A stretch of 64,000 nt of DNA from Clytia hemisphaerica (lineage: Eukaryota; Cnidaria; Hydrozoa; Leptothecata; Clytiidae). The first letter of the stretch is position 1; every line of letters starts with the position of its first letter. The notes beneath the pieces were generated by a model. The model did not search any database, was not told the origin of the DNA, and saw only the letters and a program-made list of their open reading frames with translations. The translations under genes were made by a program, and so were the position numbers. Below, in pieces: positions 12,791-58,873 of the stretch. The stretch spans positions 861,309-925,308 of the forward strand of contig CACVBU010001205.1 in the NCBI GenBank assembly GCA_902728285.1, given 5' to 3'.

Positions 12791-12837
12791 CAATTTGTGT
12801 CCATCTCATAGATATCTTCTTATAGAGATAATATCTG

Positions 12838-34271: not shown

Positions 34272-36212
34272 TTAAAAAATATCATTTAACAATGCAGATA
34301 CAATCATTCCATTCTCATACTCCACACAAGCAGCTTTCCTTAAAAACTGACTTTTATGCAAATCCTGTGAACGACCTTTATAGTTGGTTCCAATCATGAC
34401 AATGTTTACTGCTCTCGAAGCACATGGCACTGAGAAAAAATCTTGACATAAAGAAGATCTGTATACCTTACAATTGAAAATGTCTTTCATTGGAGAACTT
34501 TGAATTTGAGCAAAGTTTCCATCTCCTGTTAGAAACCAAGAATCCTTTGCACTGTTCGAAAGTTTTGTTACCAAATGTTTCTTGGTACATAAATCAATAC
34601 AATGTTCGTCAAACTCGTGGATTCTTCTTACAATTTGACTCAAAGGATTTTGTGCCTTTCTGATGAACTTCTTAAAAAATTGTAAATGGTTCTCAAATGG
34701 AAATGAAGAAATAGAGTCCAATGAACAATTGTGATATTCCACATCATCGCATATGTGAACAAGGTTGTGTACATTGTAAACAGTGAACGTGGTACCATAT
34801 AAATATCGGCTCTTTTTGACAAAATATGTCAATAATTTTCGTGCATTTTCCAAATTTTCATTTCGTACAAAATCATTAGACTCAAGTAAAATTCTGAATG
34901 CAACAACCAAAGATAAAAAATGCTTGTATCGGTCTTCACTCAAAATATCTCTTAGAACAATAAATCCAGTGTATAATAAAAAAAGGCGGAATTCAGTTGC
35001 TTTCCATCTTTTTAGGTCCTTGAGACCTCTCGGTTGGCGAGCAAAGTCAGATGGAAATTTTCCACTCATACTGTTTAGAGAAGATGAAATCCTATTTAGT
35101 TGACCAGCAGATAGTTTATAACGTCTGTCACCTTCTTTCCAAACAATTAGCAGTCTTTTGACAACTCCAAGGCACACAAGATGCATGTAGTCAAGGGGAA
35201 ATTGAGATACACAGCAAATGCCAAATTCCACCAAGCAGGTAAGCTCAAGTTGATGTTTTCCAGCATATTCAAATCTTGCAAACGCTTCATTAGTCCTTTG
35301 GTCAGAATCAAGGTTGTGAAATACCATACGCCTTGAAATACTTTCTCCTTTAGCATCACACCGCTCACAACCATGATAGCCATTGTGTGCCTTGACACAC
35401 TTTAAAAATTGACGTGCTGGAGCATCACAAGGCAAAGTGAAAATTATAACTCGATAAGATATTCCTTCGAATTCTAGTCCTTCCAATTTCAAAGAAGCAT
35501 ACTCAAAAAGAAAATCATTTAAGAAATCACGAAGGTTAGTTGGTTTTGAAGTCCCATAATAAAGGGCAACTGTAAATGGAGTCAGTTTGGAAAAGTTACA
35601 CAATATTGGCCAAAATTGACCATTGGTGGACTTAAATATTGGAAGCCCATCCACATTAACACATAACTTTATGCAGTTATCAGGGATATTTATTCCTGGA
35701 TTCTTTGAAAGTGCTCTAATAATTCCTTTCTTAATGCCAAGGTAACAATATTCTCCACCAGCTTTAGACACTATTGGAGAGGTACGAGGTGTATGAAGTA
35801 GTGTTCTTGTGTCTTTTGGTAGTTGCTCATCGTGTCCATTTTTTTTAAGTAAGGAAAGTAATTCATCACTAGCCGTTCTAGTTATTTTGTTTTTCAAAAT
35901 CCAAGAAGCGAGATCTGAAGGGAAATCTGAAAAGACCTCTTCATTTTCACAATTTCCCTCTAAGCCATCAATATGTTCCCTAAAAAAGTTATGGATTTCT
36001 TCGTCACTACTCGATTCAAAGTCAGACTGTTCTTCATCACTTGGAATGTTCTCTAATGGCAAATCTTCTTCATAGCTTGGGCCAGGGCTGCAAGACACAA
36101 TTTCATCTTCTGTAGTAACGCAAGGTTCTTCAGATGAAGATAGGTCTTTTAAAATGTTTTCGATCCTTTTATTATCTTTTCTCCATTTACGTTGATATTC
36201 ATTGCGGTTCAT
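34272..36212 (-). CDS. intact CACTA/Transposase_21-like transposase
   Basis: A single uninterrupted 646-codon frame. Residues 1-90 are basic, then strongly acidic (EEDLPLENIPSDEEQSDF). The catalytic part has the layout of an RNase H-fold (DDE/D) transposase related to plant Tnp2/Transposase_21 with a DUF4218-like end: CVNVDGLPIFKS (D188), TLPCDAPARQFL (D263) directly before a zinc-knuckle-like C-x2-C (GCERC, 282-285), then FPLDYMHLVCLG (D341 in D-x-M-H), and SFPFENHLQFFKKFIR (E507). NVHNLVHICDDV near 480 matches the H-x-x-H-L/V-x-D conserved in DUF4218. No frameshift or stop is present, so it could be active or recently active. The first ATG before the basic segment is used as the start; an upstream exon is possible. 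The DUF4806 gene lies 1.2 kb downstream on the same strand. Terminal repeats flanking both genes were looked for and not confirmed. Confidence 0.8.
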   Translation of the reverse strand: MNRNEYQRKWRKDNKRIENILKDLSSSEEPCVTTEDEIVSCSPGPSYEEDLPLENIPSDEEQSDFESSSDEEIHNFFREHIDGLEGNCENEEVFSDFPSDLASWILKNKITRTASDELLSLLKKNGHDEQLPKDTRTLLHTPRTSPIVSKAGGEYCYLGIKKGIIRALSKNPGINIPDNCIKLCVNVDGLPIFKSTNGQFWPILCNFSKLTPFTVALYYGTSKPTNLRDFLNDFLFEYASLKLEGLEFEGISYRVIIFTLPCDAPARQFLKCVKAHNGYHGCERCDAKGESISRRMVFHNLDSDQRTNEAFARFEYAGKHQLELTCLVEFGICCVSQFPLDYMHLVCLGVVKRLLIVWKEGDRRYKLSAGQLNRISSSLNSMSGKFPSDFARQPRGLKDLKRWKATEFRLFLLYTGFIVLRDILSEDRYKHFLSLVVAFRILLESNDFVRNENLENARKLLTYFVKKSRYLYGTTFTVYNVHNLVHICDDVEYHNCSLDSISSFPFENHLQFFKKFIRKAQNPLSQIVRRIHEFDEHCIDLCTKKHLVTKLSNSAKDSWFLTGDGNFAQIQSSPMKDIFNCKVYRSSLCQDFFSVPCASRAVNIVMIGTNYKGRSQDLHKSQFLRKAACVEYENGMIVSALLNDIF

Positions 36213-36942
36213 GAAAAAATTGTATGAAGTCTTGGAAATGGATAAAAATACAATAATGATACATTTATTTTTAATTTTTCAGTCTGCTAATATGTCCTGT
36301 GACCTGCGTATTGACTAACCAGAACCCAATCGGCCTATTAGGCTTAATTTAACAATCAAACAACACAAGAGCAAAGGAAATTGAACTTGATTAAGACAGT
36401 ATATTTTGATAAAAACGTCTCAACTTCTGAGATGTTAAAAAAATAAGCACAAAGTAGTTCAACAGCCTAGTAGTATAGCTGAATGTCCTTTAGCTTTACA
36501 CATTTCATTGAACCAGGTTTATAAAAACTTTGGCTGAAATTTGACAAACATTATCAAAACCAAGTCTGTGTCTCTTTACGGTAGTTCCTACTTATACAAA
36601 CGACGCAATAAAAGGTATATAAAATCTTTAAAAAAAAAAGTGACATTTTCACAATTTTTTTTAGTTGTGGTGGTTGGGGTCGTGAAATGATTGTCGCCTG
36701 CTAAATATAAGACAAGGTCCGATGGAGAAAAAAAATCCTCTAACCAAAGCAAAACCCACCAGAAAATTGAACTCATCAAAATCCTCATACTCAGTGGTCA
36801 AAACACACACAGTAGCATTTCTGAAGAATATTTGAGTTTGAGAGGGAGAGTTAATTCACCACCACACACTCACTCAGAATTTTAGAAAACATACCAAACA
36901 AAAGAGTATATTTGCATAAAAAACAAAATAATATACTGTAAA
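36213..36942. other. 5' flank of the transposase
   Basis: No exon is seen. Candidate promoter region for the minus-strand transposase. AT-rich with no clear terminal inverted repeat. Confidence 0.3.
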
Positions 36943-41434: not shown

Positions 41435-41716
41435 ATCCTCCAACCGTTGGATGGGCTGGACCAAGTTACACTACTAGAAAGGAAGGTGAAAGTTTTGAAT
41501 TCTTTTGCAACAGTGGTTCAAAACCAACACCAAAGGTTACTTGGATTAAAGATGGAGCTGAATTAGACACGTCACAAAGTACAATTTATATTCCAGATGG
41601 AAATAAGTTAAAGATACCAAAAGTGACTTCTGAAGTAGCTGGCAAATATAGATGTAAAGTTGAGAATGAGTTTGGTTCAAATATCTTGGGATGGGACTTG
41701 AACCTTATTGTACCAT
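41435..41716 (+). CDS. Ig exon 1 (I-set, canonical)
   Basis: Phase 1 in and out. Reads GESFEFFCNSGSKPTPKVTW, then IKDGAEL, then LKIPKVTSEVAGKYRCKVEN. The two disulphide cysteines, the strand-C tryptophan (VTWIKDG) and the strand-F G-x-Y-x-C are all present. The acceptor follows a TTAATCTCTTTCAG tract. The first recognisable exon of the gene, but probably not the first in reality. Confidence 0.8.
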
Positions 41717-44700
41717 GTAAGGAAAAATCAATTTTGTAGGACTTAAATGTCCATAGTTTAACTATGAAATAATAACTATTATTGAGGTCTTGAATGAGAC
41801 CAGGTTTGTTGAGCCTGGAAATTACCGTGAAAAGCACAAAGTCGATATCATATATTGACCTGTACCGACCAATCCAGATTCTATTCAGCGCGCATACAAT
41901 CAACGCAGAGAAATATTGACACATGCAAGATAATATTTATATTATTGGTCTATATATATTGGTATATATATTCTTTGAAAACTCAACCTTTGATACTCAG
42001 AGTACCTGGAAATATTGATAGGCTTCTGTTCATCCTCTAACGAAAACAGTTTCATATAGAGGAATTAGATAGAGGTCTTAAGAAGAAGATTCGAACTAGG
42101 AAATAGAATCAATTCGACTAGAATCATAAATCTTCTAATATTGTTGCAAAAAAAACCCTTAATAGTAATTTTCTAATTTTCTAATTTTGCTTTTATAATC
42201 ACAGATATGGAAGATGTGTTCGCATATACGCCCCGTAATAATTTCTTTTACGCCTCAAAACGACAAGCATGGGCTAACTGTGCCGCCCCTAAAGGTTCGC
42301 CACGCCCTTTAATCACTTTTATCAACGGTACAAGTGGAAAACCTATCAATACTGACGAAGCACGCATCGAGACGAGAATGTTTTCAAGAGGGGACATGCT
42401 TTTATATCAAATGCTTGTTAAGGATGCTACAGATTATGATACTCATACAAAATGGGCATGCAAAGCTAGCAGTGCTGCTGGAGATAAATACTCATATTTC
42501 AAAGTTGAATTCTACAGTATGTTTACTTTATAATGATATGCTTGCCACCACCACACCAAAAACCTCCTTTTTCAATTGATTTATACACTAAATCACACTG
42601 GGTAGAGTCTCTTCAACTCAAACCTCTATTACTCCCATGTCTCCTTAGCTCGAACAAGTTTTATGGTCCCTTCAGTCAACAATGCCTAATAAACCTTAAT
42701 CTAAACTCAAAATTTCCTTAACTCGAACAAAATTGTATTCCCCGTGCGTGTTCGAGTTATGGAGACTCAACTGTATTTCATTTGCTTATATAGAGGCACC
42801 TGCTGCACCATCAAACATCAAATTTACAGACCGTCTGGAAGGTTTTATTCTCAATTGGGATTTTATTCGTAATGATATCAGCCATTATCATTTTCGTCTC
42901 ACCACAAGTGATAATAAAGTGTTGGAATACAAGATGAAGGAAACAACTGAACACGAGATCTACATCACCAAATACGAAATCCGAAATCTTGAGCGGGGAA
43001 AAACATACAAAGTTGAGATGAGAGCTGTTGACAAAGATGGACAAATTGGGGAATGGAGCAATCCGATTAATTATAAAACGGTTACTGAAATAGCACCTTA
43101 TTTGGACTATCCGCTACCTTTGAAAACCCCTGTCGCAGAAGGAGTTAAACATATAGTCAAGTGTCAAATTCGTGGAGAACCGATTCCGAAAATCGTTTGG
43201 ACTTTGAACGGGAAACAAATATCGGAATCAAATTCGGATTATGAAATGGTTAATGATAAAGGAGAATTGATCTTGGTGAAACCCGTTCGGGATCGTTTGA
43301 ATGGTATCTATCAATGTCAAGGAACAAATAAGCTTGGCAGCATAAAAAATAATCCAACAACTTTAGATGTCGAGTGTAAGTTTAAAGTTTTTATACTTTT
43401 TCTAAAAATCTTTTGAGAAACTAATTATTAGGGCGGAGACGGTGAAACTGAAAGTAATTTTGATTGGTAAAATCTTGATCTTCAAAAACCACACCTTTTT
43501 GTTGATGGTCATTACCCTCTCATTAGAATGTGAAAACCTGCGCAACGTTTTTTCAATGTCTATCTAACGTTCACAACATCCATGTAACGTTTTCGAACGT
43601 TGATACAACGTTATGTGCTAGCTGCGTTTCCTAAAAACTTTATTTACTTAGCTCAGATCTTGGTATCTAAAGATGTTTGATGACTTAGCTCTAGAGAGGG
43701 AAATATATAATTTCCATTTAGAATTTGCCAATTCATATAACTATTGCCAATAAAGCTCACGTTCCCTAATTATGATATTACGACCGATGTTTCTTTTGTC
43801 GAGTAAAACAGGAAGAAGAGGAGTCCACGCGAATCTCAACTTTTAATTAGCCTTCATTAGCATCAGCAATAATTAATTACTCCTGAAGTACAATAAGGAA
43901 GCCATTGAACTGTTTTAATGACTTTTTTGTTAATTACATTTTCCGTGATTACACACTGGATGTTGGTCGCTTCCATAATATTTGTAATCACCATTTCGTG
44001 AAATATGGATGGGTTTGCATTAACATACAATTTTTTTCAAAATTGCCAAAAAATATGAACAATAAAAGAACAATGCTGAACTTGAAATTACTCTATTTCA
44101 AGTAATTTAGTAATAAAATTGGGTATAACACCTAAAATACCTCAATTAATCCTATAAATATTAACAGCATGAGAACAATAGACGATATCGGCTTTCCGAA
44201 TCATTACCCATGATGCATTGCGCAAAAAAATTCACGGACGATATTGACACACTGAATCTTTTTGCACAATGCATCATGGGTAATCATTCGGGGAGAATTT
44301 CGTTAAGCCGGATATCGTCTATTCCAGGGTTAAGCTGCCAGTATGTTACCATCTAAGTTCTGGTTTACACCAAGACTCGGCCTAAACAAATCAAGCAATC
44401 TCTTGGTATCTTATTTGTTTAAATCAGCCAATCGATCGGTGCTAAGAAAAGTCGTTGTTGAGTTAAAGATCAAATCGTCCCTCACATGACTTAAGGTTTA
44501 ATCTCAAAATTAATACCTTATGAAATTTAGAGTTTTACTGTGGTGGTCATCTTTGAGATTGAGATTGCCCTTTTTTCATGTAGAGGAATAGTCGATGTTT
44601 TCATATGACAAAAAGGCCAATCTCAAAGGCAGAACAGGATTGCAAGTTTTCCAATTTTCCAAGACACTTATTTTGAGATTGAACCTTTAGTCATGTGAGG

Positions 44701-47700
44701 GACGAAATCTAAGAATCATTTTCTACCTTTTCATCGTATACAGGGATCGAAAAGAAATTTGAATTCTCACCACGCAACCATACATTCTACCGAGGATTAA
44801 GATTCATCCGTATTTCATGCCGACCTCCAAAATCCTCCCCGGCTGCCGATGTTGATTGGTTATGGAATGATCGTAAAATCAACCCTTTTACCATCTCTAA
44901 TTTCGCTAAAGTCGTTTATAATGACCCTCTTGGCGTCCTGTATCATGCATTGGAGATTCGAAAACCAACATCTGCTTTGGCTGGTAATTACTCATGCGTT
45001 GCTAAGAATGTTGGTGGCACCCAATTCGCTAATTTAACTGTTAAAGAAATTCGTAAGTAACTCTAGTAGCGTCTCTTTAACTCGATTCTCTATAAATCGA
45101 ATGTTTTCTCGTCCATTCAGTTAACGATGCCTTTTATAAACCCTACTTCGAAACTCGATCAAGTTCGTGTTCCCCGACAATTTTCGCGCGATTCTTGAAC
45201 AATAGTGATATCGGCTTTACATGAAAACTCAGATTTGACCCCCGAGAATTGCCTACAATGCTTTGAGTGGAAATAATTTAATCGTGAACTTTTTTCCGCG
45301 CAAAGCATTGTGAGCAATTCTCGGGGGGAGGGGGCAAATCTTGAGTTTTCACGTTATGCCGATATCGTCTATTAAAGACAATTTGTACATAACAAGGCGG
45401 TAGAAAACCGATCATTTTTACCAATTGTTCGGGTACAGGCTGAATAGAACTATGAATTACAGTTGACGCTTGCTAATTCGAATTTCAAGGGGAATTGAAT
45501 AAGGGAGCATATTGAATAGTAGAGTGTCGTTAATGAGTATTTTTTGTTGACAGCAACTTTCAAAATTATCAATAATGATAATGGAGCGTATCTTGTAAAA
45601 ACGTATAGTAAAAAAAAAACCGTATGCAATTTACGTTATATCCTGTTTTTTTGATTTTTTTTTATGCGCGCAATTTGATGCATGTTTTCAGTTCAATAGT
45701 TTTACGATGCGATGTGCGTAATTTTTGATTTCCTGGTTACAAAAATATTTTTTTATAAACAGCAACGCAATTGTAAACACAGATCCGTAAATTTCCTATA
45801 TCCTAGAAAATTTCATGTAGATACAATAGCGACCAACGAGGAAGTCTGAAAATAATTATTTTTCACTAGGCAATCAATTTTAAAATAGGATAATTCTATG
45901 ATTGGATGCTATTCTTTAAAAACAATTAATCTGTCAAAAATGTTCACCCTTGAGTTATACCTTGTATCAACAGGCCCTACATGTTTTTTTATATAAGCAA
46001 GTGTCTGCCCCTACATCAGGCTCGCATTATGCTTAGCATTCTATTGTTCTCAAACAATAGAGCCATTGTTTAGGTATCAAAAACTGAGCCTGCATATGCT
46101 TATAAAACGTTATGCTTATAAAAGAAAAAACATGTATACTAGAAAGTGCTCTTATTCGAAATTTTACCGCCAAAAATTCATCATTAAAAGATTAAGACCC
46201 ACCTAGCGTAAAAAATCAAAACCATCATAAAGTAAAGTCTAACCAACCCAATTCATTCATTCTTCTTCTTATAGTCCCAAAGAAACCGCTAGCTATCAGT
46301 GATCCAAAATCATTGACCCAACTTTTCGCTGATAAAGAAGAATCATTCAAATTGAGTTGTCATTTCTTGGCTGATCCAACACCATCAATTGTTTGGTATC
46401 ACAATAAACAAAAAATCAACATGGAAAACAACCCTTATTTCTCTGTTACTGATGATGGTAAAGGTCTGAGTACACTGACATTGAAATCATTGAACAAAAT
46501 ACATCACGGTGATTATTATTGCACGGCGACCAATGAACACGGAACGACGACAACCACGAATGGATTCATTGATCTGATTTGTAAGTTACTAAACATGATT
46601 CTTTCTAAACAATTCATGTTTTCATGTTTTTCTTTTTTTGTTAGAAGTTTCAATTCCGTAAAAAAAAAGATGTCATCAAAGAAATTAGTCTTGGAATATT
46701 CTTTACCGGTTTTAAAGCTCTCGTCAAAAAACTTTCCAATCTCCTAAGTACGGTATCTTTACCAAACAATTTTCCTTAAGAATTCACAGCAGAACATTTT
46801 TTTTCCAATAAAATCTCCCAAATAATCACCCACAACTATGCTAGGCTACTGACATTCACTAACGGATTCCTTTTCTTTATACTACTGGGTTTTAAAGAGG
46901 TCTTTGATTCAGACTACAACTGTGCTTGATTTTCCACCTGAGTGAATCTGGTTTAAAAAGAAGTTTTCCATTTCCTATAACTTAGATATGGATCCAGATT
47001 TCGTGTACTGGCAAAAGGAAACGTACGTATACGACAAACCAGGGTACAAGCATGCTAACATCATTTGTCGCCCACCTAAAGGAAACCCCTCAACACGTGT
47101 TGTCTGGTCAAATGGTACCGAAGATAATTTACAATACCAATCCAACCCAGATCAAACTTGGATTACAAATGATTTAGAAAATGGAAATTTCGTAATGAAA
47201 ATTGATAATGCTGTTAAATATGTTGGCTATGGGCTTGTTGGATGTGCAGCTTGGAACCACAAAATTGGATTTGCAGGAAAATATAATTTGCAATTGACTA
47301 AATTGGTCAAAGTTGGCGCACCAAAGATAGAATCGACAAAGGTGACATTCGAATCAGCTACAGCAATGAAAGTGACAGTAAAACTGGAAAAAGAAAGGTA
47401 GGAATTTTCATTTTTCAATACGTTAATACGGTGAAAGTTCATGAACGTCAATGCTGATAGTCTTCGGTTGGGACAATTTTAGCCTAAAACTTATGCTTAT
47501 AAGAGGCTAGCCAATATTTGACACCAAAACTTACACAATACGTCTCCGATCCATCTTGTCTAAGCCCTTCTCCATATATTATGAAAATTAGAAGTTAAGT
47601 AAAGATTTTTCGATACGTTAATACGGTGAAGGTTCATGAACTTCAATGCTGATAATCTTTTGTTTTTTAAGTTACAATGGCAATGTAGAGACTATAGACT

Positions 47701-50199
47701 GTCGATGCTAACCCTTTATTGAACATTTACTTCAATAATACCGGAAGTTACGTAACTTAATAAGCCATAAAAAACCCCTTTTAGTTTATGAACTCGATAA
47801 ATTTAATCTGAAAATTAAGATACACTACAGTGCCGTAGGAAGCATTTCCATATTGGGGGGGGGGGCTGAAGTTTAGTGACACCGCGAGGGCCAACCATGG
47901 TTTGGGCCGAGGGGGGAAATTTTGAAAATTTGAGCTCTAGATAGCTTGAAAATGCACTCAATTGTGACAATTATGACAAATTAAAAAAGAAAAACTTTGC
48001 ATTTTGCAAATAACCATTTTTGAAAAAATTATTGGGGGGGGGCATAGCCCCCCCTTTGCCCACCAGTTGCTACGGCACTGCACTAGACTGATCGCAAATG
48101 AAAATCATTCAAGCCCTTAGAGCAGGTCAACTTTACCAGTTCATAGCTTAGGATATGAAACCATTGAAACAATTGAATTTGCCTTTGAAATATTGGGGGC
48201 TTTAAACCATGTTCAGACGTTACGGTTCCGTTCCGTTCCGAAACAGGTGTGAACGTCAAAATTCGAAACGTCAAAAAAGAAGACGTTACAAAGCAAAACA
48301 GATCGAAACAGTTTTGCTCCACTTTTTTCATCGAAACGGAACTGCTCCGTTTTCTTGCTCCGAAACGTTCTGCAACCAATATGAACCCACTCGATCCGTA
48401 ACGAAAATGATACCAGAACGAAACGGAACAGTAACGCGTGAACATGATCTTCAATTCAATATAAAAATACCTCCCAACATTCTTTTTATTCAATCAGATA
48501 TGATGCTGAGTTTACTATTACAGTCACCGGTAAAAAAGACTCCACAGGAAATGTTCGTCGTCGCAGAAGAAACACGGATGAAGTTATTTACACCAACAAA
48601 ACTAAATCCCTTGAAAACACTGTCGAAGCTGATATGTGGCGATTCTCAGATATCAAAGTTCAAGTCACTGCCAGTGATCCTGCTGAGCAAAAGACTGAAG
48701 CTATAATGGAAGTACCGGACTCAGGTACTGAATGAAATTAATTTTCTGCTTTCCTATTCCCCGTGCGCTCGTCCCATTGCGGCACGCCGAACCAGCCGAA
48801 TCAACTTTTGATTCCCCATTTCGTATGTATTTTGATGAACTTGTGTTGCAAGCAACCCAACACCTTGAGTGCCCCCGGGGGAAGCAAAACAACACCAACT
48901 AACAACATCGATAAACAACTAGCAACTAGACCTCAGATCTTTTTCATCGTCCAATAATTTCTTTTGATTTAAATAAGTTCAGATAGATCATTGAAAACTT
49001 GTTCATTTTTAGATATTCCACCCAAACCTACGACGACCACCCCAAAACCAACGACAACGACCACCCCAGAACCAACGACAACGACCACTGAACCACCAAC
49101 GACAATGACTACCCAAGCACCAACGACAACGACCACCCCAGAGCCAACAACAACGACCACCAAAGCACCAACCACAACAACCACTCAGGCAGAAACCACC
49201 GCAAAAGCCACGGAAAAAACAGTTGAAATAACTACCAAAGCCACAACTACAGAAAAAGCAAAGGAAACAACAGAATCTGCAACAACCACGACAACTACAA
49301 CACAAAGCGCAACATCTTCTACCGAATCTCTAAAGACAACCGAACAATCTATGACAACAACCACAACACAATCAACGACCTCTACAACTGAGGCAGAACC
49401 CACAACTGAATCTGAAGTAAAGAAAGTCGATCCCGTCACAACCGTAAAATCAACGGAATTAACCGAAAAAGCAACGGAAACAACCGAAAAAGCAACGGAA
49501 TCAACTGAAAAAACAACGGAATCAACCGAAAAAGCAACGGAAACAACCGAAAAGCCGACACAAACGACCGAAAAAACAACGGAAAAATCATCATCTTCAA
49601 CCGAAAACCCAAAAACAACGACATTGGCTGATACTACTACAACCACAGAGGAGACAGACGAAAAAGTTGCAACAACAAATAAAAACGGGGTGGTTAGCGT
49701 TGCCACACCCACTACTGAAGCCACCCTCAACGTCAAATCATCCAATAGTGGTAGGTTATTTTCTTTTCATTTAATGTTTTCTGTTTAATAATATGTTGGG
49801 GATGATTCTATGTGGTTGTTGATTGGCTTAACAAACTTACCAAAGGAAGAGGCTAGATTTTTGCATCAAAAAGTCTAGTTAGACTAATTATTAAAATAGA
49901 CAAGTAATTTTAAGAGTTTTAGAGGACGCGACATAATATCAAAATAATAGGTTTTAAAGAATCGTCTGTCTTGAAATGAGATTTGGGTTATTTAGTTCTG
50001 TAATGGATAAAAAACAAGTTTTTTTGAAAAAATCCCTTCTTTTTCTTTCCTAATAGGTAAGACAACGTCAGGCAAAAAATTAAAGGATGTTCAATTAGTT
50101 GGCATTATTGTTGGCGCATGCGTATTCTTCATCTTGATTCTGATTCTGGTCATGTGGTTGGTTAGAAGATCAAGGTCACGATCCTCAAAAGGATATTAA
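41435..50199 (+). CDS. membrane Ig/FN3 protein with mucin stalk, 3' end cassette 1
   Basis: A 5'-incomplete gene. Exons: 41,435-41,716; 42,205-42,516; 42,794-43,375; 44,744-45,052; 46,275-46,580; 46,986-47,397; 48,498-48,724; 49,013-49,750; 50,058-50,199. All have GT-AG borders; introns are phase 1 except the one inside the last FN3 domain (phase 2). The product reads I-set Ig, atypical Ig, FN3, Ig, atypical Ig, Ig, atypical Ig, FN3, a Thr-rich mucin stalk of about 245 residues, one transmembrane helix and a short basic tail. This is a cell-surface adhesion/recognition type of molecule. No signal peptide exon was found in the window, so at least one exon lies further upstream. The tail has no signalling motif. 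The FN3 exon at 48,498 could instead splice to a second stalk/anchor cassette at 54,118. Function is inferred only from domains. Confidence 0.75.
41825..41925. repeat. dispersed repeat (CCGTGAAAAGCAC family), copy 3
   Basis: CCGTGAAAAGCACAAAGTCG, ACCGACCAATCCAGATTC and AATCAACGCAGAGAAA match the copies at 18,352 and 21,720. It lies in the intron after Ig exon 1. Confidence 0.7.
42205..42516 (+). CDS. Ig exon 2 (atypical Ig)
   Basis: Reads VFAYTPRNNFFYASKRQAWA, then NCAAPKGSPRPLITFINGTS, then HTKWACKASSAAG. Both cysteines remain, but the core strand-C tryptophan is replaced (LITFING) and the tyrosine before the second cysteine is a W. The motif C-x-x-P-K-G/S-x-P is shared with the exons at 44,744 and 46,986, so these three form one subfamily distinct from the canonical Ig exons between them. 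Confidence 0.7.
42593..42776. mobile_element. MITE with Tigger/pogo-like termini, copy 2
   Basis: CACTGGGTAGAGTCTC at the left and GTTCGAGTTATGGAGACTCAACTG followed by TA at the right. Contains TCCTTAACTCGAACAAAATTG and CCCCGTGCGTG, the reverse of words in copy 1 (7166-7312). It ends about 18 bp before the acceptor of the FN3-Ig exon. Confidence 0.6.
42794..43375 (+). CDS. FN3 + Ig exon
   Basis: Two domains in one exon with no intron between. FN3: APAAPSNIKFTDRLEGFILN, NWDF, HYHFRLTT, YEIRNLERGKTYKVEMRA and GEWSNPI, with the expected W, L-x-x-G-x-x-Y and A/R-V positions. Ig: EGVKHIVKCQIRGEPIPKIV, VWTLNGK, LNGIYQCQGTNKLGS, with canonical C, W and Y-x-C. Phase 1 at both ends. Confidence 0.8.
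43541..43625. repeat. AACGTT-rich short element, copy 5
   Basis: Contains CGCAACGTTTTTTCAATG, AACGTTCACAACATCC and AACGTTGATACAACGTTATG, ending GTGCTAGCTGCG, a decayed CCAGCTGG end. Intronic. Confidence 0.55.
44177..44323. mobile_element. MITE with AATAGACGATATCGGCTT ends, copy 1
   Basis: AATAGACGATATCGGCTTTC and AAGCCGGATATCGTCTATT are near-exact inverted ends. A second inverted pair inside (ACCCATGATGCATTG / CAATGCATCATGGGT) makes most of the 147 bp a hairpin. Intronic. Confidence 0.8.
44476..44704. mobile_element. MITE with CGTCCCTCACATGAC ends
   Basis: Left CGTCCCTCACATGACTTAAG, right CTTTAGTCATGTGAGGGACG, both followed inward by (T)TTAATCTCAAAAT and ATTTTGAGATTGAA. The interior repeats TTTGAGATTG. 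Same intron as the two ATATCGGC MITEs. Confidence 0.75.
44744..45052 (+). CDS. Ig exon (atypical Ig, CRPPK type)
   Basis: Reads FEFSPRNHTFYRGLRFIRIS, CRPPKSSPAADVDWLWNDRK, then LAGNYSCVAKNVGGT and LTVKEI. C-R-P-P-K replaces the usual C-x-x-x-G, and W and Y-x-C are kept. Paired with the preceding canonical Ig. Confidence 0.75.
45060..45185. mobile_element. MITE with Tigger/pogo-like termini, copy 3 (decayed)
   Basis: CTCTAGTAGCGTCTCTTTAACTCGATTC, GTTAACGATGCCTTTTATAAACC and GTTCGTGTTCCCCG match copy 2 in order. It begins within 10 bases of the splice donor, so it touches the exon edge. Confidence 0.5.
45201..45373. mobile_element. MITE with AATAGTGATATCGGCTT ends, copy 2
   Basis: AATAGTGATATCGGCTTTAC and GCCGATATCGTCTATT frame inverted TGAAAACTCA(A)GATTTG and CCCGAGAATTGC arms. 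Shares only the terminal 17-20 bp with 44,177-44,323, so the two are related by ends, not interior. Confidence 0.75.
45980..46135. mobile_element. 156-bp MITE (CATGTTTTTTTATATAAGCA end), copy 2
   Basis: Near-identical to 29,421-29,574 and flanked by TA on both sides. Intronic in the Ig gene, 140 bp before the next exon's acceptor. Confidence 0.85.
46275..46580 (+). CDS. Ig exon (canonical I-set)
   Basis: Reads DKEESFKLSCHFLADPTPSI, VWYHNKQKI, then LKSLNKIHHGDYYCTATNEH. C, W, L and G-D-Y-Y-C are all present. Phase 1 both ends; donor GTAAGT. Confidence 0.8.
46986..47397 (+). CDS. atypical Ig plus first half of FN3
   Basis: Ig: ETYVYDKPGYKHANIICRPP, KGNPSTRVVWSNGT, then VGYGLVGCAAWNHKIGF, where G-C replaces Y-x-C. 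The same exon then starts an FN3 domain: LVKVGAPKIESTKVTFESAT, MKVTVKLEKE. The donor splits an Arg codon (phase 2), and the FN3 domain continues in the next exon. Confidence 0.7.
47828..48080. mobile_element. 253-bp MITE with CAGTGCCGTAG ends, 5-bp target duplication CACTA
   Basis: CAGTGCCGTAGGAAGC and GTTGCTACGGCACTG are inverted ends. CACTA occurs at both flanks (47,823-47,827 and 48,081-48,085). Inside are G runs (TATTGGGGGGGGGG) and their C counterpart (CATAGCCCCCCCTTTGCCCACC). Confidence 0.8.
48208..48446. mobile_element. palindromic MITE with CATGTTCA(G/C)(A/G)CGTTAC ends
   Basis: CATGTTCAGACGTTACGGTT, then GTTCCGTTCCG at the left; CGAAACGGAACAGTAACGCG, then TGAACATG at the right. Ends 51 bp before the second half of the FN3 domain (48,498). 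Confidence 0.75.
48498..48724 (+). CDS. second half of FN3 with a five-arginine loop
   Basis: Completes the FN3 domain begun in the previous exon: YDAEFTITVTG, then KKDSTGNVRRRRRNTDEVIY, then TVEADMWRFSDIKVQVTASD and IMEVPDS. The five arginines (48,556-48,570) satisfy the furin-type R-x-R/K-R rule. Ends phase 1 after a lone G, which joins AT (49,013) to give Asp, or AA (54,118) to give Glu. Confidence 0.75.
49013..49750 (+). CDS. Thr-rich mucin stalk exon, cassette 1
   Basis: About 245 residues, over half Thr/Ser. It begins DIPPKPTTTTPKP; the first part is P-E-P-T-T-T-T-T units, the middle E-K-A-T-E-T/S-T units (TTEKATESTEKTTESTEKAT), and the end is TTEATLNVKSSNSG. The many Thr/Ser-Pro sites suit O-glycosylation, giving an extended stalk. 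Phase 1 in and out. Confidence 0.8.
50058..50199 (+). CDS. transmembrane and tail exon, cassette 1
   Basis: Reads GKTTSGKKLKDVQ, then the helix LVGIIVGACVFFILILILVM, then WLVRRSRSRSSKGY and stop. A single-pass type I anchor with a basic tail of about 14 residues rich in S/R and no tyrosine or PDZ signalling motif apart from the terminal G-Y. Confidence 0.85.
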
Positions 50200-50643
50200 G
50201 AATTTCAGCAAAAGAAATCCTGAAAATAAGTTTTGACTCTTTGGGCCTTATTGACATTGTAATATTTTTCAAGGACACGGTCCCCTAACGGATTTTAAGA
50301 ATGTCAAGAAATCAGATCCAGAATTTTAACTCATTGATCCTTTGGGAATTAATATTTTCGGTGTTCCAATCGTGGTGATCATTAGATACATAATACGGAA
50401 ATGAATTTTGATATCACATTTTCACTCTAAATAGAAATCAAGAGAATTGGAGAGACTTTGACTTTTTTTAGACTTGATATGTCTTTTCATTAGACACGAG
50501 ACATTCTTTATTATACATTGAGTCAAGTCAACATTGAGTGATTTTGGTTGATTTTTAACCTAGAAGGGCCCTTGGAGTCAAAATAAAAATTACTCATAAT
50601 TTTATTGAAATTTTATACTGATAATTAAAAATGAGACAAAATG

Positions 50644-50877
50644 AATAAATTTTATTTATTTAATTGCATGACTGTTATTAAAATTGTATTTATATTTTGG
50701 AATAAGAATCCATTCAATTATTATTGATTATTGATTAAAATATTATTGTACAAAGTTTTTATGTGAAAGAAATCAAAATTGACTACAGAAAAAACTGATT
50801 TTGTCCTGTTTTATCTTTGCAATTCAGCCAGAAAAAATAGGCATGAAATCATGTTAATGTTAAATTGATACAATAAA
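50644..50877 (+). terminator. candidate polyadenylation signals of cassette 1
   Basis: AATAAA occurs at 50,644-50,649 and again at 50,872-50,877, 445 and 673 bases after the cassette-1 stop codon. Either could end the shorter transcript. Cleavage sites cannot be placed from sequence alone. Confidence 0.4.
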
Positions 50878-50879
50878 AA

Positions 50880-51739
50880 AGATCATTTTCTAACCAACCA
50901 CATTCAGCCAAATTGCAGCTTTTTTATTTCTTTAACATGAAGTTACAGATCACATTTATGAGCAGGGAAGGGTTATAAGGTTTGCAAAGAACGATTTTCG
51001 CTAAATTTCTGTACACATTTTTCTGAAAACCTTCGAGAAGGAAATCTTTTTTAATTTTCATGATTTTGGTACCTTTCAGAATGTTTTGTATCAATCACAA
51101 CCACCTCCAAAATAACCAGTGAGTTCTAAAGAACCAATCAAAATAAACTTCCCTTCTCTTTGATCGTATCATCACTAAAACAGCGTTGTAGCCAATCAGA
51201 GCTTTTCCTGTCACCCAAACAACAAATTAAAAAACACTTCCTTTCTTTTCAACTTGAATTATATTACGTATCATTTCCCACGCTATCATCTAATGTTTCT
51301 GTTTTTAAACTTAAGCTTTAAAACAGGATCCAAGTCAAATCCGTCTTTCAATTGCTCCAGTGTCAATTGAATACCTTAATAATATTCTAGTGACTACGAT
51401 TGTTCAGAAGTATACAGTACTACAAATAAAAGGATATATATCGTAATACCCTTTTTGATTCCTGGATATTACTGGGTATACAATTTATACTTCCCCTTTT
51501 TTAAGGGTCTGTAAAAGATTTCCTTTCTACCAAAACGTCACTGATTCTACTTTGAGTTTTGTTATTGTTAGAAATGCCTTAGAAATAAAGACTCCTTACA
51601 CAAAGAAAGAAAGTTGTCACAATGGATAGGATTTTATTAGACATTGTTTGGTTAAAAACAGAGAAATACCAGACCAATCGCAGTCAAGGTCATACACATT
51701 ATATATTCTTCCTTCATTCATGCAAGACAAAGTCCAGGT
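50880..51739. other. intergenic or intronic, no exon seen
   Basis: No Ig, FN3 or other exon was found between the two cassettes here. If cassette 2 is used by the same gene, this is part of a 5.4-kb intron. Confidence 0.4.
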
Positions 51740-53115
51740 ACCCGGGGGTAGTAGGGTTGCAAGCTGACGGGGGAGGGGGTGGGTTACCGCCCGACTTTCG
51801 ACCCTCGGACCCTTACCGGGACTAAAAAGGAGAAAACAAAGGAAAATTTTGTGAATTTTACGACCCTTACCGGTGTAACCGTAAATCTTTACTCCCCGGA
51901 AAAAATCACTCCCTCAGTTATAATTTCCCGGGAAAAAATGACCCCTGGAGTAATAATTACCTGAGAAATTATTACTCCCCCGTGGAAAAGATTACTCCCC
52001 TTCAAATTGCAAATTTATTTGCTCTTATTAGGGGGGAGTGTTATTTTCCCAGTAAATTATGACTCCCTGGTGAATTCCGGCTATTGCATATTCGAATTAA
52101 ACATTCGATTTGGACATTCCAATCAATGAAGTCACTTGCTAAGTAGAGACGTTTTAAAAATGTATGCATACTGTAATCCATAAACTTTATTTTTGTGGTT
52201 GCTGTAAAAGAAAACCTAGCCATAAAATCATCTACAAGTTAAAGTGACCCGTTGTTACCCCCACCCATCCCGTTGAACTGTACCCCTGGTGACGCCAAGA
52301 ACATTTTCATCCGTTCGGGCAAAAATGAAAGAATGCTATCCCCACTGTAGCGATTTTTTATCTTCTTTTTCCTTTTGAAATATTCTACTCTAAGGACCCG
52401 AATAATAGAGGGGTTCAAATATAAAAGGGGGAGGGGGTCCGAAATTTCTGTAAAATATAATAGACGAGGGGGAGGGATTGAATAAACGGGGGGGGTTCGA
52501 AATCAGTATAGTCAAGAAAGATGCCTTTTTATTAGAATTTTTATAGGGCCAAGAAAAAGCTCTACGAACAAGAATTTTTTGAATTAAATTTCAAGAATTA
52601 TTTCAAAATAATGAAAACAGTGTTGCAGTGTCAAGATGTAGCCAGGTTTTTAAAATATCTCTCGATTTTCTAACCCAAGCAAATCGCACTCAAGAAAAAA
52701 GTTTAAATTCAATTTAAATGTCAAAATAACAGTAAAAATTTCCATATTGTTTTTGTTATTTATTCATGATAAACAGGAAAAAAATGTTGATCGTGATCTA
52801 TGCCAGTTTTTTGGTATACTATCAGGGGAGTAAAAATTTCCCGAAGGGAGTCATTATTTTCGCGTAAATTTATACTCCCGGAAGTAATAATTTCCTGGGA
52901 AAAGATTACTGGGAGTGATTATTTCCCAGTGAATAATGACTGGAGAGTATAAATTTTGGGGAGTAATATTTTACTGTGACACCGGGACAAATTTGACCAG
53001 TTTTGACCAAATTTCTATCTTTTCTGGGGGTAAAAAGTTGAAATTTTCCAATTTCTCCTACCCTTAGTGGGACTGAAGTTTGAATTTCTGATTTTTCCAA
53101 CCCTTAGCGGGACTT
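51740..53115. repeat. GGGAGTAATAATTTCCC repeat region
   Basis: Clusters at 51,890-52,075 and 52,825-52,975 contain many GGGAGTAA / TTACTCCC and TTTCCCGGGAAAA words in both orientations. Outside them ACCCTTACCGGGACT (51,810) and ACCCTTAGCGGGACTT (53,100) are near copies in direct orientation. A poly-G patch (52,425-52,500) resembles the ends of the 3845-5510 element. Probably one decayed composite element. Confidence 0.5.
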
Positions 53116-53640
53116 TGTAGGTCCAAAAATTATGTAAAAATGTACTGGGAAAAGGAGTATTTTAATTCTTATTCCCCTTGTTCTAAATTCGAAATTCTTG
53201 TACCTAAGAGCAACATTAATGGAGATGAAAATCTAGGTTATCAGGACGAATTTAGCAACGTCTCATCAAAGGTGACCTCCACAATACTCCTGATATAGAT
53301 TTGATTTCATAATAGGCTAAAATGCAATTAAAAAAGTAATTGCTTTAATTTTTTCTACTAATTGCAAAAAAATTAATTTTATTGCAAACAAACTTTTTAT
53401 GTTTATTTCTAAGAGCCGAATTCCGTTTTAAGTTAAATCCTAATCTTTACAAGTCTGTTGTGTCTAAGCCTAGATAAGCGACTAAGTTACCGCTAAATCC
53501 TGAAGATCGTGGTAACACATTGTGATTTGTCGAAACTTGTGTATGGCATTTGTAAAGGTTTAAAACAGTTTTGTGTCTACTCCGAAATATTTTTTTTCTT
53601 TTTTTACTTTGCATGCTTTTTTCATAAGAACAAACTTTAT

Positions 53641-53875
53641 AACGCCGTTGACAAATCAAATGTCCAATCTCAAAATTATTGCCTGAGAAGACTAAGAATT
53701 TTTATGTTTGCCTGAGCATAAATTTTGAGATTGACCCTGTTTCATGTTGTTGGGAGTATGGGAACATCCTCACTATGCAAAAATCTCAAATTCAAGGCTA
53801 ACTACAGAGAAAAACTCTTAGCTTTGTCAAACACTAATTTTGTGATCGGCCCTTTTGATTTGTAAACGGCGATAT
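53641..53875. mobile_element. MITE with AACGCCGTTGACAAATCAAA ends
   Basis: The left ACGCCGTTGACAAATCAAATG and the right CTTTTGATTTGTAAACGGCG are inverted, followed inward by CAATCTCAAAATTA and TAATTTTGTGATCG. Internal TTTGAGATTG words resemble the element at 44,476-44,704. Confidence 0.65.
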
Positions 53876-53990
53876 CAACATAAGGCTTCGATAACCAAAC
53901 AAAATATCAAGAATAAGTTAAGAACATTTTTAGGCTTAAAACCAAGTTAAGAACATCCGAAGGCTTCATAAATTTGGGTGTTCTTATATT
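53876..53990. repeat. dispersed AT-rich repeat (AAGAACAT family), copy 2
   Basis: CATAAGGCTTCGATAACCAAAC, AAGTTAAGAACATTTTTAGGC and TTAAGAACATCC follow the same order as at 3050-3230. Confidence 0.5.
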
Positions 53991-54117
53991 TAAAATTAGC
54001 ATTTATTTAAAACCTACTTTCATATCAGCGTTTAAAGGGCTTGTGCACAGTTATGTATTCTATTTTTAAGCTATATTGTTTAGTAACATTTCATCATATC
54101 ATTTTTTCCCATTTCAG

Positions 54118-57100
54118 AAAAAGCACTTTTGACTACCCTGCCAACATTAGTGGAATCGAACAATGGTGTAACTCAGTCGACGATTCTTCTACATACAACG
54201 TCGTCTACATCAGAAAATCAATTGACTTCAAGTACAGATTCCCAGATTCAAGAAATGGCAATATCTACAAGTAATCTTCCATCAGTAATTTCATCAAAAA
54301 CATTGGTAATCAAATCTTCAAAAGTAGATCTTATTACTGCAACCAAAAGCTTTCATGTAGAAAAATCGTCTGCAAAAAGACAAACATCTCTGGTTAAATC
54401 ATCTCAATCGACAGAAAAAACTGATCCTATTTCTACAACCGAAAATTTCAAAGTTGAAACACCTTCTGTAATTATCAAAACTTCGTTAAAGTCATCTCAA
54501 TCGACGGTAAAAGCAGATCCTATAATTGCAACCAGAAGTTTAAAAGTTGAAAAATCTTCTGCAAATATTCAAATGTTATCGAAAACATCTCTGGTTAAAC
54601 CATCTCAATTCACAGAAAAAGCAGACCCTGTTGCTACAACCGTAGGTTTGAAAGTTGAACCATCATCTGCAACAAGACAAACATTCCTGGACAAATCAGC
54701 TCAATTGACAGAAAAAGCAGATCCTATTATTGCAACCAAAAGTTTAAAAGTTGAAAAATCTTCTGCAAGTATTCAAACGTTATCAAAAACATCTCTGGTT
54801 AAACCATCTCAATTCACAGAAAAAGCAGATCCTATTGCTACAACCGAAGGTTTGAAAGTTGAACCTTCGTCTGTATCAAGTCAAACATTCCTGGACAAAT
54901 CATCTCAATCGACAGAAAAAGTAGACCCTATAATCACAACCAGAAGTTTAAAAATTGAAACATTTTCAGGAAATTTTCAAACTCTGTCAAAAACATTCCT
55001 GGACAAATCATCTGAATCCACAGAAAAAGCAGATCCTATAACTACAACAAAAAGTTTAAGAGTTGAAAAATCTTCTGCAAATATTCAAATGTTATCGAAA
55101 ACATCTCTGGTTAAACCATCTCAATTCACAGAAAAAGCAGACCCTGTTGCTACAACCGTAGGTTTGAAAGTTGAACCATCATCTGCAACAAGACAAACAT
55201 TCCTGGACAAATCAGCTCAATTGACAGAAAAAGCAGATCCTATTATTGCAACCAAAAGTTTAAAAGTTGAAAAATCTTCTGCAAGTATTCAAACGTTATC
55301 AAAAACATCTCTGGTTAAACCATCTCAATTCACAGAAAAAGCAGATCCTATTGCTACAACCGAAGGTTTGAAAGTTGAACCTTCGTCTGTATCAAGTCAA
55401 ACATTCCTGGAAAAATCATCTCAATCGACAGAAAAAGTAGACCCTATAATCACAACCAGAAGTTTAAAAATTGAAACATTTTCAGGAAATTTTCAAACTC
55501 TGTCAAAAACATTCCTGGACAAATCATCTGAATCCACAGAAAAAGCAGATCCTATAACTACAACAAAAAGTTTAAGAGTTCAAACATTTTCCGCTGCTAC
55601 ATGGTCAATCTTATCAGTGACCGAACTGGTAAAAACACCAACAGTATTGTTACCAGAGCAGCAATCCTTTACAGAAAAAACATCTCAAATCACACAACCT
55701 ACAACTACAGCTTTCGTTGAATCAAAATCTACCATAACAACACCGATTGTAATTTCATCTGCTGAACCCAAAGTGGAAATGAAGATCTCTTCTCAAATCG
55801 TAAAATCAATACCAATCAAATTCATAGAATCTGGATTTTCTACTGGAATTTTGGAAACAGAAACTTCTACAGAGCCAATTGCAATTATACATTCTAAGCC
55901 CACCACGATAACATCTTCTGGAACTGAATCTTTTAGAACTATACAACTAGAATCTACAAAATCTGCAGCTTTGGAAACAAAATTTGCAACACAATCAACT
56001 GTAATTACACATTCTCAATCCACTAAAAAGGCATCTTCTATAAACATTGAATCTGAATCAGTTATTATAACTTCTATAAAGGCACCTTTGATTGAAGTTA
56101 TACCCTTTCATTTCACAGCGACGACATCTCTTCAAGTCACGGACGTATCTTTTAAACAGCTAAAATATACAAAAAGTTTCTTTGAAAGCGTGCTCGCTTC
56201 TACACCATCGATTGCTATTTCGCCGTCGCAGTCTATCACGACAAAATCTAATCGAAACATTATTGGTACATCCATTATAATGATAAGATCGACATTTCAA
56301 ACAAACACATATGAAGAAAAGTCTATAGACAAATCAACGAGAATTTTGCCATCTCAATCCAATATGAAGAAATCCTCTGTGATAATGGAATCCGAATCAG
56401 AAACTATATCTTTGGGAACCATCGCTGTCCCATCAAAACTGACAGACCACCATACACCATTGCAAGCAACTCCATCAAATAATGTCTTCTCAATAACATC
56501 ATCAGAGCATATTCAATCGCTGGACTCACCAACCATTACATTAATCCAATCGTCATTATTGGAATCGTCAACCCAAACATTAATGAAATTGGAACAAACA
56601 CCAACGATCAAAGAAACAACACCGCTCTCAACATACATCAGAGAAGCAGCTCGACAAACTGCGATAACATCGACTCAATCATCTCATCTTAAACAAAAAA
56701 CAAGTTCAAAAATAGACAACGCAAATCAATCCACATACACCACACCAGACACTGAAATGGTAACACATAAAACAGTACACCCAGATCCTTCAAAATCAAT
56801 AACAAATTCAGTGGTACATCACTCAACATCAACACAATCAATACAGCCAACTACCTCGATTACTATAAATAACATAAAATCCCCGATACAAAGTTCAAAT
56901 CCATCAACAACGAAAATTACCGAACAACCAGCATCGTCTGCAATTACCACACCAACAATAGCACCATCGACGACCTCGATAAATACAGAACCGAAATCCA
57001 CAAAAACCATTACCAAGATCCCTTCTTCGTCACAGTCACAAGTTGCTAACCCATCAGAACCATCCTCTAAAATAACAGAACTTAAACAAAAGATCACGAT

Positions 57101-58352
57101 CTCAGCTAAGGTTTCAACTTCATCAGTCACATCACCAACACTTAAACCTCCAACAATCAAACCGTCCACTAGCTTTGCTCATCCGAATCTTTCGCCATCA
57201 ACAAGTGTAATTACCAATAATGTTGGTGGCAAGATTGAAAACAATAAAGGTAAGTCTTTTTGAATACTTCAGATACAAGGTTGACAGCCTAAAGAATTTC
57301 CGAGAAATGCCCGAAAGATTGTTTTTCTTAAGAGTTAAGAGAAGTATGTGATGCGAATAGATCTCGAAATTCCGCTGCGTTTTGGCAAGTATTAATTATT
57401 GTTAGATTTTACATGTATCAATTGTCTGGCCACTAAGCTCAACAAAGCTCTTTCCGAGGAAATAGTTGTTGTTTAATCAATTTTTAACAAAATCTCCCAA
57501 AAAAAGCGTCACAGTGAAATAAATATGAGTTTCATCCTATTTTATTTTAAAAAATGAAACCGAGATAAAGAAATCAAAGAAAGATTCAAAATAAACAATT
57601 TCTGACCTTCAATTTTGATGACAATCTAAATCCCAAACCCATATTGTATTTGAATCAAGCTTGAAATAAACACGATGAAAGTTAAAATAATTCCAAATGT
57701 TAAAATAATTCCCATACCATGACCTCAAGTTCCAATAAGTAATAGTTATCGGACAGTTGCAAGTACAATATGAGAAATATTTTACGAGTTCCGAGATTTT
57801 TCCGTACAATATTTTCCGAGCCTTTAGGCAAGGAAAATATACGGAAAATCCGGAACGAGTGAAATATTTCCATATTGTACGAGCAAATGTCTGATGTAAC
57901 TGGTTTATCGGTGACCCAAAAAATGCACTTTTTGTCTTGGAGGACACTTTTGTAGCAAAGTGACGTTAGATTGCTTCTACCGCTACAATGCAACAACATC
58001 TTTTCGTCAATTTATATTTTTACATGTAAAATACAAGATATATTGTACTCTTCTTAACCAATCAGATTGCAGATATTTTTTGGATCACCGATAAGGCCGA
58101 AATACATAAAAATTCTTATTTTTTCACATTTTATGAAAATCAACATAATAGTACAGATACAAAAGAACATATATAAAACATACTAAACTGTTCTTTTGTC
58201 GTTTAGGAAACGACACAAGGCTAAAGAGTACTCACATTATCGCAATCATATTTGGAGGAATCGGGCTAGTCATCATGACCATCATTATCGTCATTGTGTT
58301 GTTAAAGAAGTCACAGGCTAAATACAAAATGTCTTCAGAGGTTGCCACATGA
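54118..58352 (+). CDS. second mucin stalk and transmembrane cassette (cassette 2)
   Basis: Two exons: 54,118-57,249 and 58,207-58,352. The first encodes about 1,044 residues, mostly Ser/Thr/Lys, with repeats of S-Q-S/F-T-E-K-A-D-P-I and S-L-K-V-E-K-S-S-A. The second encodes GNDTRLKSTH, the helix IIAIIFGGIGLVIMTIIIVI, then VLLKKSQAKYKMSSEVAT and stop. No signal peptide or own ectodomain exon lies between 50,200 and 54,118. The acceptor phase (AA after a one-base carry) matches the donors at 48,724 and 49,750. It is therefore either an alternative 3' end of the upstream Ig gene or the end of a second gene whose start is unseen. The exon-phase layout is the same as cassette 1, and the transmembrane exons occupy the same position, so the cassettes probably arose by duplication. 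The stalk is about four times longer than in cassette 1. Confidence 0.7.
54545..55576 (+). repeat. recent 516-bp in-frame tandem duplication in the mucin exon
   Basis: The block starting AAAAATCTTCTGCAAATATTC occurs at about 54,550 and again 516 bp later (172 codons, in frame). I see very few differences, for example GACAAA versus GAAAAA at about 54,894 and 55,410. Each block has about five shorter 30-40-residue units (T-E-K-A-D-P-I). Likely length-polymorphic. Confidence 0.85.
57751..57893. mobile_element. hairpin MITE with GTACAATATGAGAAATATTT arms
   Basis: GCAAGTACAATATGAGAAATA and TATTTCCATATTGTACGAGC are inverted, flanked by CGGACAGTT / AATGTCTGA. The centre has TCCGTACAATATTTTCCG and GAAAATATACGGAAAATCCGG. 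It lies in the intron between the cassette-2 stalk and its anchor exon. Confidence 0.65.
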
Positions 58353-58605: not shown

Positions 58606-58873
58606 CACTCTTTTTTATAAGAACCAGTAAATTTTTGATGAAACTCGGCCGTTTTTATTCTTTCACACTTTGAGCCTAAATATGTTCTTATCCTGTTCTT
58701 ATTTCTAGGGCAATATTAAGGTATTTTGGGTTTAGTACTCTATTTTTACTAGGGTTAATCCTTAATTTGTCCTAAGTTCAGCCATTCCAGGCTCAGCACT
58801 GTTCTTAAAATTAATCTTTGGAATTCTGAAGCTCATTGTTCTTATAGAATTATTCCTACGCAAAAAAAGAGTG
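58606..58873. mobile_element. MITE with CACTCTTTTTTATAAGAA ends, copy 3
   Basis: TA then CACTCTTTTTTATAAGAAC at the left; GTTCTTATAGAATT ... CAAAAAAAGAGTG at the right. Shorter (268 bp) and more diverged than the copies at 8901 and 26,033. Confidence 0.6.

Follow-up and report, generated by a model that had tools for sequence, protein, structure and literature searches.

A Clytia hemisphaerica immunoglobulin-superfamily gene with two candidate stalk-and-anchor 3' ends

We analysed a 64-kb stretch of the genome of the hydrozoan Clytia hemisphaerica (C832:861309-925308, without any N and hereafter called the window; positions are window coordinates unless another contig is named), in which the exons of an immunoglobulin (Ig)-type ectodomain are followed by two cassettes, C1 and C2, each made up of one Ser/Thr-rich stalk exon and one exon for a transmembrane (TM) segment and a tail. 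Judging from the sequence, we lean, with some reserve, towards reading the locus as one Ig-superfamily adhesion gene with two alternative 3' ends. What speaks for this interpretation, which a preliminary description of the locus had already put forward, is that the two cassettes are frame-compatible, that neither an Ig exon nor a credible signal-peptide exon lies between them, and that C2 shows signs of being kept as coding sequence in a second copy elsewhere in the assembly.

Results

A single open ectodomain ending at a common donor

Splicing of seven exons in silico (Table 1) gave a single open frame of 810 aa that runs from 41435 up to the 48724 donor, which leaves one G. Phase 1 is used at five of the six ectodomain junctions, the exception being 47397|48498 with phase 2. 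Pfam I-set matched the ectodomain in four stretches (E 1.7e-49) and fn3 in one; the tandem I-set domains by which the I-set Ig cell-adhesion superfamily is recognized are present, and contactins and neurofascin headed the 147 PDB matches by sequence. An Ig hidden Markov model (HMM), trained on the six domains of this gene and four of a paralogue on contig C8, recovered the six Ig exons, by construction, among the 1143 open reading frames (ORFs) of the window. The last ectodomain exon (48498-48724) had previously been called FN3, but a Pfam search with E values up to 10 did not find fn3 in it, and the fn3 match falls in 42794-43375 instead. The signal peptide of the Ig gene is probably encoded by the candidate exon at 25901-25955, which is not significant alone because the stricter of two signal-peptide scans has a background of seven matches on the plus and four on the minus strand in 64 kb.

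Table 1. Exons of the Ig gene, its two cassettes and associated features in window coordinates
Feature	Position	Strand	Remarks and basis
Candidate signal-peptide exon, MIWTSILICFTITLVTAN|G	25901-25955	+	phase-1 donor ATG|gtatgt; would join 41435 over a 15.5-kb intron
Ig 1 exon	41435-41716	+	phase 1-1; splicing in silico, Pfam, Ig HMM
Ig 2 exon	42205-42516	+	phase 1-1; splicing in silico, Ig HMM
FN3 + Ig 3 exon	42794-43375	+	phase 1-1; Pfam fn3 match, Ig HMM
Ig 4 exon	44744-45052	+	phase 1-1; splicing in silico, Ig HMM
Ig 5 exon	46275-46580	+	phase 1-1; splicing in silico, Ig HMM
Ig 6 + first half of membrane-proximal domain	46986-47397	+	phase 1-2; Ig HMM
Membrane-proximal domain, second half	48498-48724	+	phase 2-1; donor CAG|gtactg common to both cassettes
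C1 stalk exon	49013-49750	+	246 codons, 41.5% Thr
C1 TM and tail exon	50057-50199	+	stop codon at its end
Stretch without counterpart in the C349 copy	51874-52980	.	holds signal-peptide-like ORF 52784-52829
C2 stalk exon	54118-57249	+	1044 codons, 18% Ser, 15.9% Thr, tandem repeats
C2 TM and tail exon	58207-58352	+	stop codon at its end

A run of five arginines (RRRRR, GNVRRRRRNTDEV) stands in the part of the membrane-proximal domain encoded by 48498-48724, just outside both stalks, and is a possible furin-type cleavage site; furin sites occur in FN3 domains of L1-family proteins. Read-through of the shared donor (48724-48735) appends Gly-Thr-Glu before a stop is reached, so that intron retention would yield a secreted ectodomain. 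In the intron preceding the last ectodomain exon lies a dispersed repeat of about 250 bases (48201-48451), with at least 43 further matches in the genome.

Two cassettes in frame with the same donor

Both cassettes have phase-1 borders and both can be joined to the donor at 48724, where the single G completes an Asp codon with C1 (G|AT) and a Glu codon with C2 (G|AA), and either frame is open through to its stop. The tails differ, being RRSRSRSSKGY in C1 and KKSQAKYKMSSEVAT in C2. The spliced frames and a TM scan thereby bear out the preliminary description, which had given one Ser/Thr-rich stalk exon and one TM/tail exon with phase-1 borders per cassette, the Asp/Glu pair, two different tails, and stalks of about 245 and about 1,044 aa, for which we find 246 and 1044 codons. 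The scan, made for phase-1 TM end exons on the plus strand of 41-64 kb, returned three matches, namely both TM exons with the reported acceptors and a site at 58802 that we judged implausible as a TM end exon. At the level of sequence, one common donor is followed by two in-frame alternative TM ends, and C2 has the build of a transmembrane mucin, a long Ser/Thr-rich tandem-repeat segment and then a TM segment; dense O-glycosylation of its stalk is predicted from composition only.

The interval between the cassettes

No Ig exon was detected between the cassettes by the HMM scan of the window ORFs, in which the next match after the six exons had an E value of 0.91, and we therefore ruled out that one is hidden there. 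The preliminary description had also placed no signal peptide in this interval. A first scan of 50.2-54.1 kb brought up one weak donor-bearing signal-peptide-like ORF (52766/52784-52829), whereas the stricter scan of the whole plus strand listed none between the cassettes. This ORF sits in a stretch missing from the second copy of C2 on contig C349, which speaks for C2 being another end of the Ig gene rather than a gene of its own. For window 50200-51483 there is no second copy for comparison.

Within the C2 stalk the first in-frame Met is residue 47, and the sequence from there (MAISTSNLPSV...) is, by eye, unlike a signal peptide. C2 would thus depend on a signal peptide encoded further upstream, and this, too, argues for its being reached from the Ig gene. 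It also bears on the idea of an operon in which C2 would be the 3' cistron, with spliced-leader trans-splicing at 54118. Spliced leaders are found in hydrozoans and an operon has been shown in Hydra (PMC3273482, PMC11067881), and the acceptor at 54118 has pyrimidines at 15 of 18 upstream positions. Nevertheless, an mRNA starting at 54118 without a visible signal peptide would hardly make a surface protein, and we regard the operon as very improbable.

A second copy of the C2 side

The C2 side alone occurs a second time at C349:685930-697166, collinear with the window from 51484 onwards as far as its end. Of 11,387 aligned columns, 473 are mismatches (about 4%, repeat overlaps being counted). 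The C2 acceptors at 54118 and 58207 are unchanged in this copy, and the donor reads gtaagt/gtgagt. Eight of the nine insertions or deletions (indels) that separate the two stalks are multiples of three, compared with none of the eight in the C2 intron (Fisher p 4e-4). Over the 47 codons of the TM/tail exon, no nonsynonymous and one synonymous difference were counted, and identity amounts to 99.3% in the C2 TM exon, 96.8% in the stalk and 92.9% in the intron. The chance probability of the 1044-codon open frame is about 2e-30 at the base composition of the exon, an estimate assuming independent bases, which fails for so repeat-rich an exon. Frame length, in-frame indels and the splice sites kept in C349 together rule out a chance open frame, and C2 looks like kept coding sequence, the frame of which is mostly retained in the second copy.

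As to the nature of this copy, its homology to the window begins at 51484, next to a single N, and a further 17.8 kb of the C349 stretch examined is N; the bases past the break match the window only as short repeat-like pieces, and 3,000 of them searched genome-wide proved to be repeats. The break looks like a scaffold join. A full second haplotype was rejected, as the homology starts only at 51484 and C832:1000001-1002000 has no C349 match, and the copy may be either a segmental duplicate or a partial haplotig. Neither the ectodomain nor C1 had another near-identical copy among the candidates scored (56 of 99 in one search and 40 of 153 in another), although one could be hidden in N stretches.

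Evidence weighed against two alternative ends

A number of observations, concerning first the coding status of C2 and then its link to the Ig gene, weigh against one gene with two ends. Two of the in-frame stalk indels, of 204 and 312 bases, are whole repeat units and thus not independent evidence; with these removed the comparison becomes six of seven in the stalk versus none of eight in the intron (p about 0.0014, calculated by hand). The one stalk indel that is not a multiple of three, an insertion of 2 bases, puts the C349 copy of C2 out of frame. The ratio of nonsynonymous to synonymous change (dN/dS) in the stalk is about 0.94 (0.0313/0.0332, 857 codons), near 1, and the stalk is no better kept than its flanks (98.1% over the 210 aligned bases that precede 54118 and 96.4% over the 248 after the stop), and noncoding bins of the C349 alignment have a similar identity. 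A kept frame with loose sequence suits a mucin-like stalk, and relaxed constraint is also possible. C2 might even be the decaying relic of a duplicated gene end that is no longer spliced, as the frameshift and the dN/dS value would allow, together with the observation that no paralogue with the same two-cassette arrangement was seen among the genome matches scored. We hold this to be improbable in view of the 1044-codon frame that is open in the window, the mostly in-frame indels, and a TM exon and splice sites that both copies retain.

Regarding the link to the Ig gene, the phase-1 fit of the cassettes is weak evidence because, with five of six ectodomain junctions in phase 1, any end of such a gene would likely fit. 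In the C8 paralogue, the part scanned held a single TM end exon, with a short Ser/Thr/Pro-containing segment before it. On C349, C2 stands with no Ig exon visible next to it, which is weak evidence either way since the break there looks like a scaffold join. Moreover, two signal-peptide-like ORFs from the stricter scan, 45624-45717 and 45712-45772, lie within one Ig-gene intron and might in principle be used by a different transcript. In a more serious competitor, C2 is a separate membrane mucin gene that has a small 5' exon and a signal peptide to itself, beside a complete Ig gene ending in C1. C1 does form a complete end that carries a stop codon, it lies 3.9 kb away from C2, and poly(A)-like words follow both cassettes (14 and 11, but such words are common in this AT-rich DNA and were judged uninformative); the signal peptide might come from the ORFs at 45624 and 45712 or from a small distant exon. 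A precedent is the invertebrate Ig locus fuhc of Botryllus, which was initially taken for a single gene with two splice forms and two ends and proved to consist of two adjacent genes, a warning for the window locus (PMC3691228). On the other hand, no Ig exon stands between the cassettes, the lone signal-like ORF there escapes the stricter scan and is missing from C349, and the break in C349 adjoins N, and we consider a separate mucin gene possible but doubtful.

Finally, the joins 49750->54118 (open through the C2 stalk) and 49750->58207 are open as well, which makes mutual exclusion of the cassettes a proposal and not a finding. Together with the expected phase fit, it is here that the interpretation in the preliminary description loses ground. 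One version of the alternative-end reading, tentative in its own right and taking a share of the likelihood that we grant to that reading, keeps the C1 stalk and skips only the C1 TM exon, which would give a stalk of about 1290 aa followed by the C2 anchor and would amount to optional exon use instead of a stalk switch. Besides the open join, the donor at 49750 scores higher than that at 48724 (8.3 vs 5.6), but the matrix is rough and approximate, three other donors of the gene score 3.7-4.1, and we judged such scores uninformative; nothing specific speaks against this form.

Relatives and origin of the two ends

The C8 paralogue (C8:905247-925063, minus strand; 35% identity over query residues 96-392) is a longer Ig/FN3 gene, judged from its ORFs. 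An ORF resembling family-C G-protein-coupled receptors, named by eye, follows both this gene and the C349 copy of C2, which suggests an old block duplication; the window ends about where this ORF would begin. The two TM exons of the window show a weak likeness in ungapped comparison (score 56, reached by 26 of 2000 block shuffles), which a plain shuffle (0 of 200) overstates, the C1 TM exon against the C8 TM end giving 0 of 200 too. Homology of the C1 and C2 stalks was dismissed, with a score of 160 against a shuffle mean of 152, reached by 43 of 200 shuffles. A duplicated gene end is a possible origin of the two cassettes, at which only the TM exons hint.

Elsewhere in the window, a 59-base tandem array of about 38 copies occupies 12831-15107, and a 668-aa ORF on the minus strand (34272-36278) has no Pfam match at E up to 0.1 and possibly, by eye, stems from a transposon. 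Outside the window, in an assembly of 951 contigs and 417 Mb, contig C900 (14,551 bases), when read by eye with TGA as Trp, contains nad4, cob and a cox1 that reaches the end of the contig; such a gene order with cox1 in terminal position fits the linear mitochondrial DNA of hydroidolinan hydrozoans.

Discussion

If C1 and C2 are alternative 3' ends, an RNA that uses the C1 exons and ends after them would encode a receptor with a 246-aa Thr-rich stalk, and an RNA that runs on and is spliced into 54118 would place an identical ectodomain on a Ser/Thr-rich repeat stalk of 1044 aa, with the other anchor and tail. This supposes that transcripts of the Ig gene are spliced into 54118 in the first place, with either 48724 (C1 skipped) or 49750 (C1 stalk kept) as donor, and that a poly(A) choice is made between the two ends; in effect, one head would then be held at differing heights above the cell coat and combined with different tails. 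We find such a mechanism plausible. A more ambitious form, in which a regulated and mutually exclusive switch selects between two complete stalk-anchor-tail endings of one Ig receptor in an early-branching animal and the long stalk varies by in-frame repeat units between copies, such that reach would be tuned by splicing and allele with the binding head unchanged, is offered as speculation that we ourselves think rather unlikely.

With respect to known families, contactin/L1 proteins proper have six Ig domains and then an array of FN3 domains. The sole Pfam fn3 match of the window gene lies between Ig 2 and Ig 3, with none in the membrane-proximal domain. Alr1 and Alr2 of Hydractinia are hydrozoan Ig-type surface proteins with a stalk and a TM segment, and their heads are V-set-like, whereas for the heads encoded in the window I-set is the best match and the tails are short. 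A V-set-like first Ig domain was not found: V-set scored E 6.4e-5 and 23.5 bits, below the cut-off of 26, with its best stretch near residues 547-603, outside the first domain, and I-set was strong.

Alternative membrane ends have precedents. In Dscam the alternatives are single exons with common exons downstream, Fasciclin II carries alternative membrane anchors on one ectodomain, and the mucin-like segment of neurofascin is not tied to a second anchor. Unlike in Dscam, each alternative in the window brings its own long stalk, TM segment, tail and stop, so that the choice would involve 3' end formation too; unlike in neurofascin, each mucin-like stalk is tied to its own anchor; and unlike in NCAM, with its choice between a glycosylphosphatidylinositol (GPI) and a TM anchor, both ends are TM and the stalks differ about fourfold in length. 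In Dscam of Drosophila and other arthropods, exon 17 exists as two transmembrane exons used in a mutually exclusive manner, and the window gene would share with it an Ig/FN3 ectodomain that is joined to either of two TM exons (PMC3364881). With NCAM, which has GPI and TM isoforms, it would have in common one ectodomain with alternative membrane ends (PMC4754453), and with neurofascin, for which spliced isoforms and a mucin-like segment (PAT domain) are reported, the combination of an Ig/FN3 protein and such a segment (PMC8716720). Given these alternative anchors, the earlier claim that the arrangement is not described for animal Ig proteins was too strong. A literature search over titles and the starts of abstracts, with few subscription journals, returned no stalk-plus-anchor switch in an Ig protein and no two ends each with its own mucin stalk, and this combination of two ends with separate mucin stalks is where the novelty, if real, would lie.

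Should C2 turn out to be a separate mucin gene, the locus would be ordinary. If both ends are used, however, a single exon choice would set stalk length and cytoplasmic tail together and leave the recognition head unchanged. Hydrozoans are known for colony fusion and self/non-self recognition, and the locus would, if the reading of one gene with two ends is true, offer a clean natural system for the effect of receptor height above the glycocalyx and of tail identity on adhesion.

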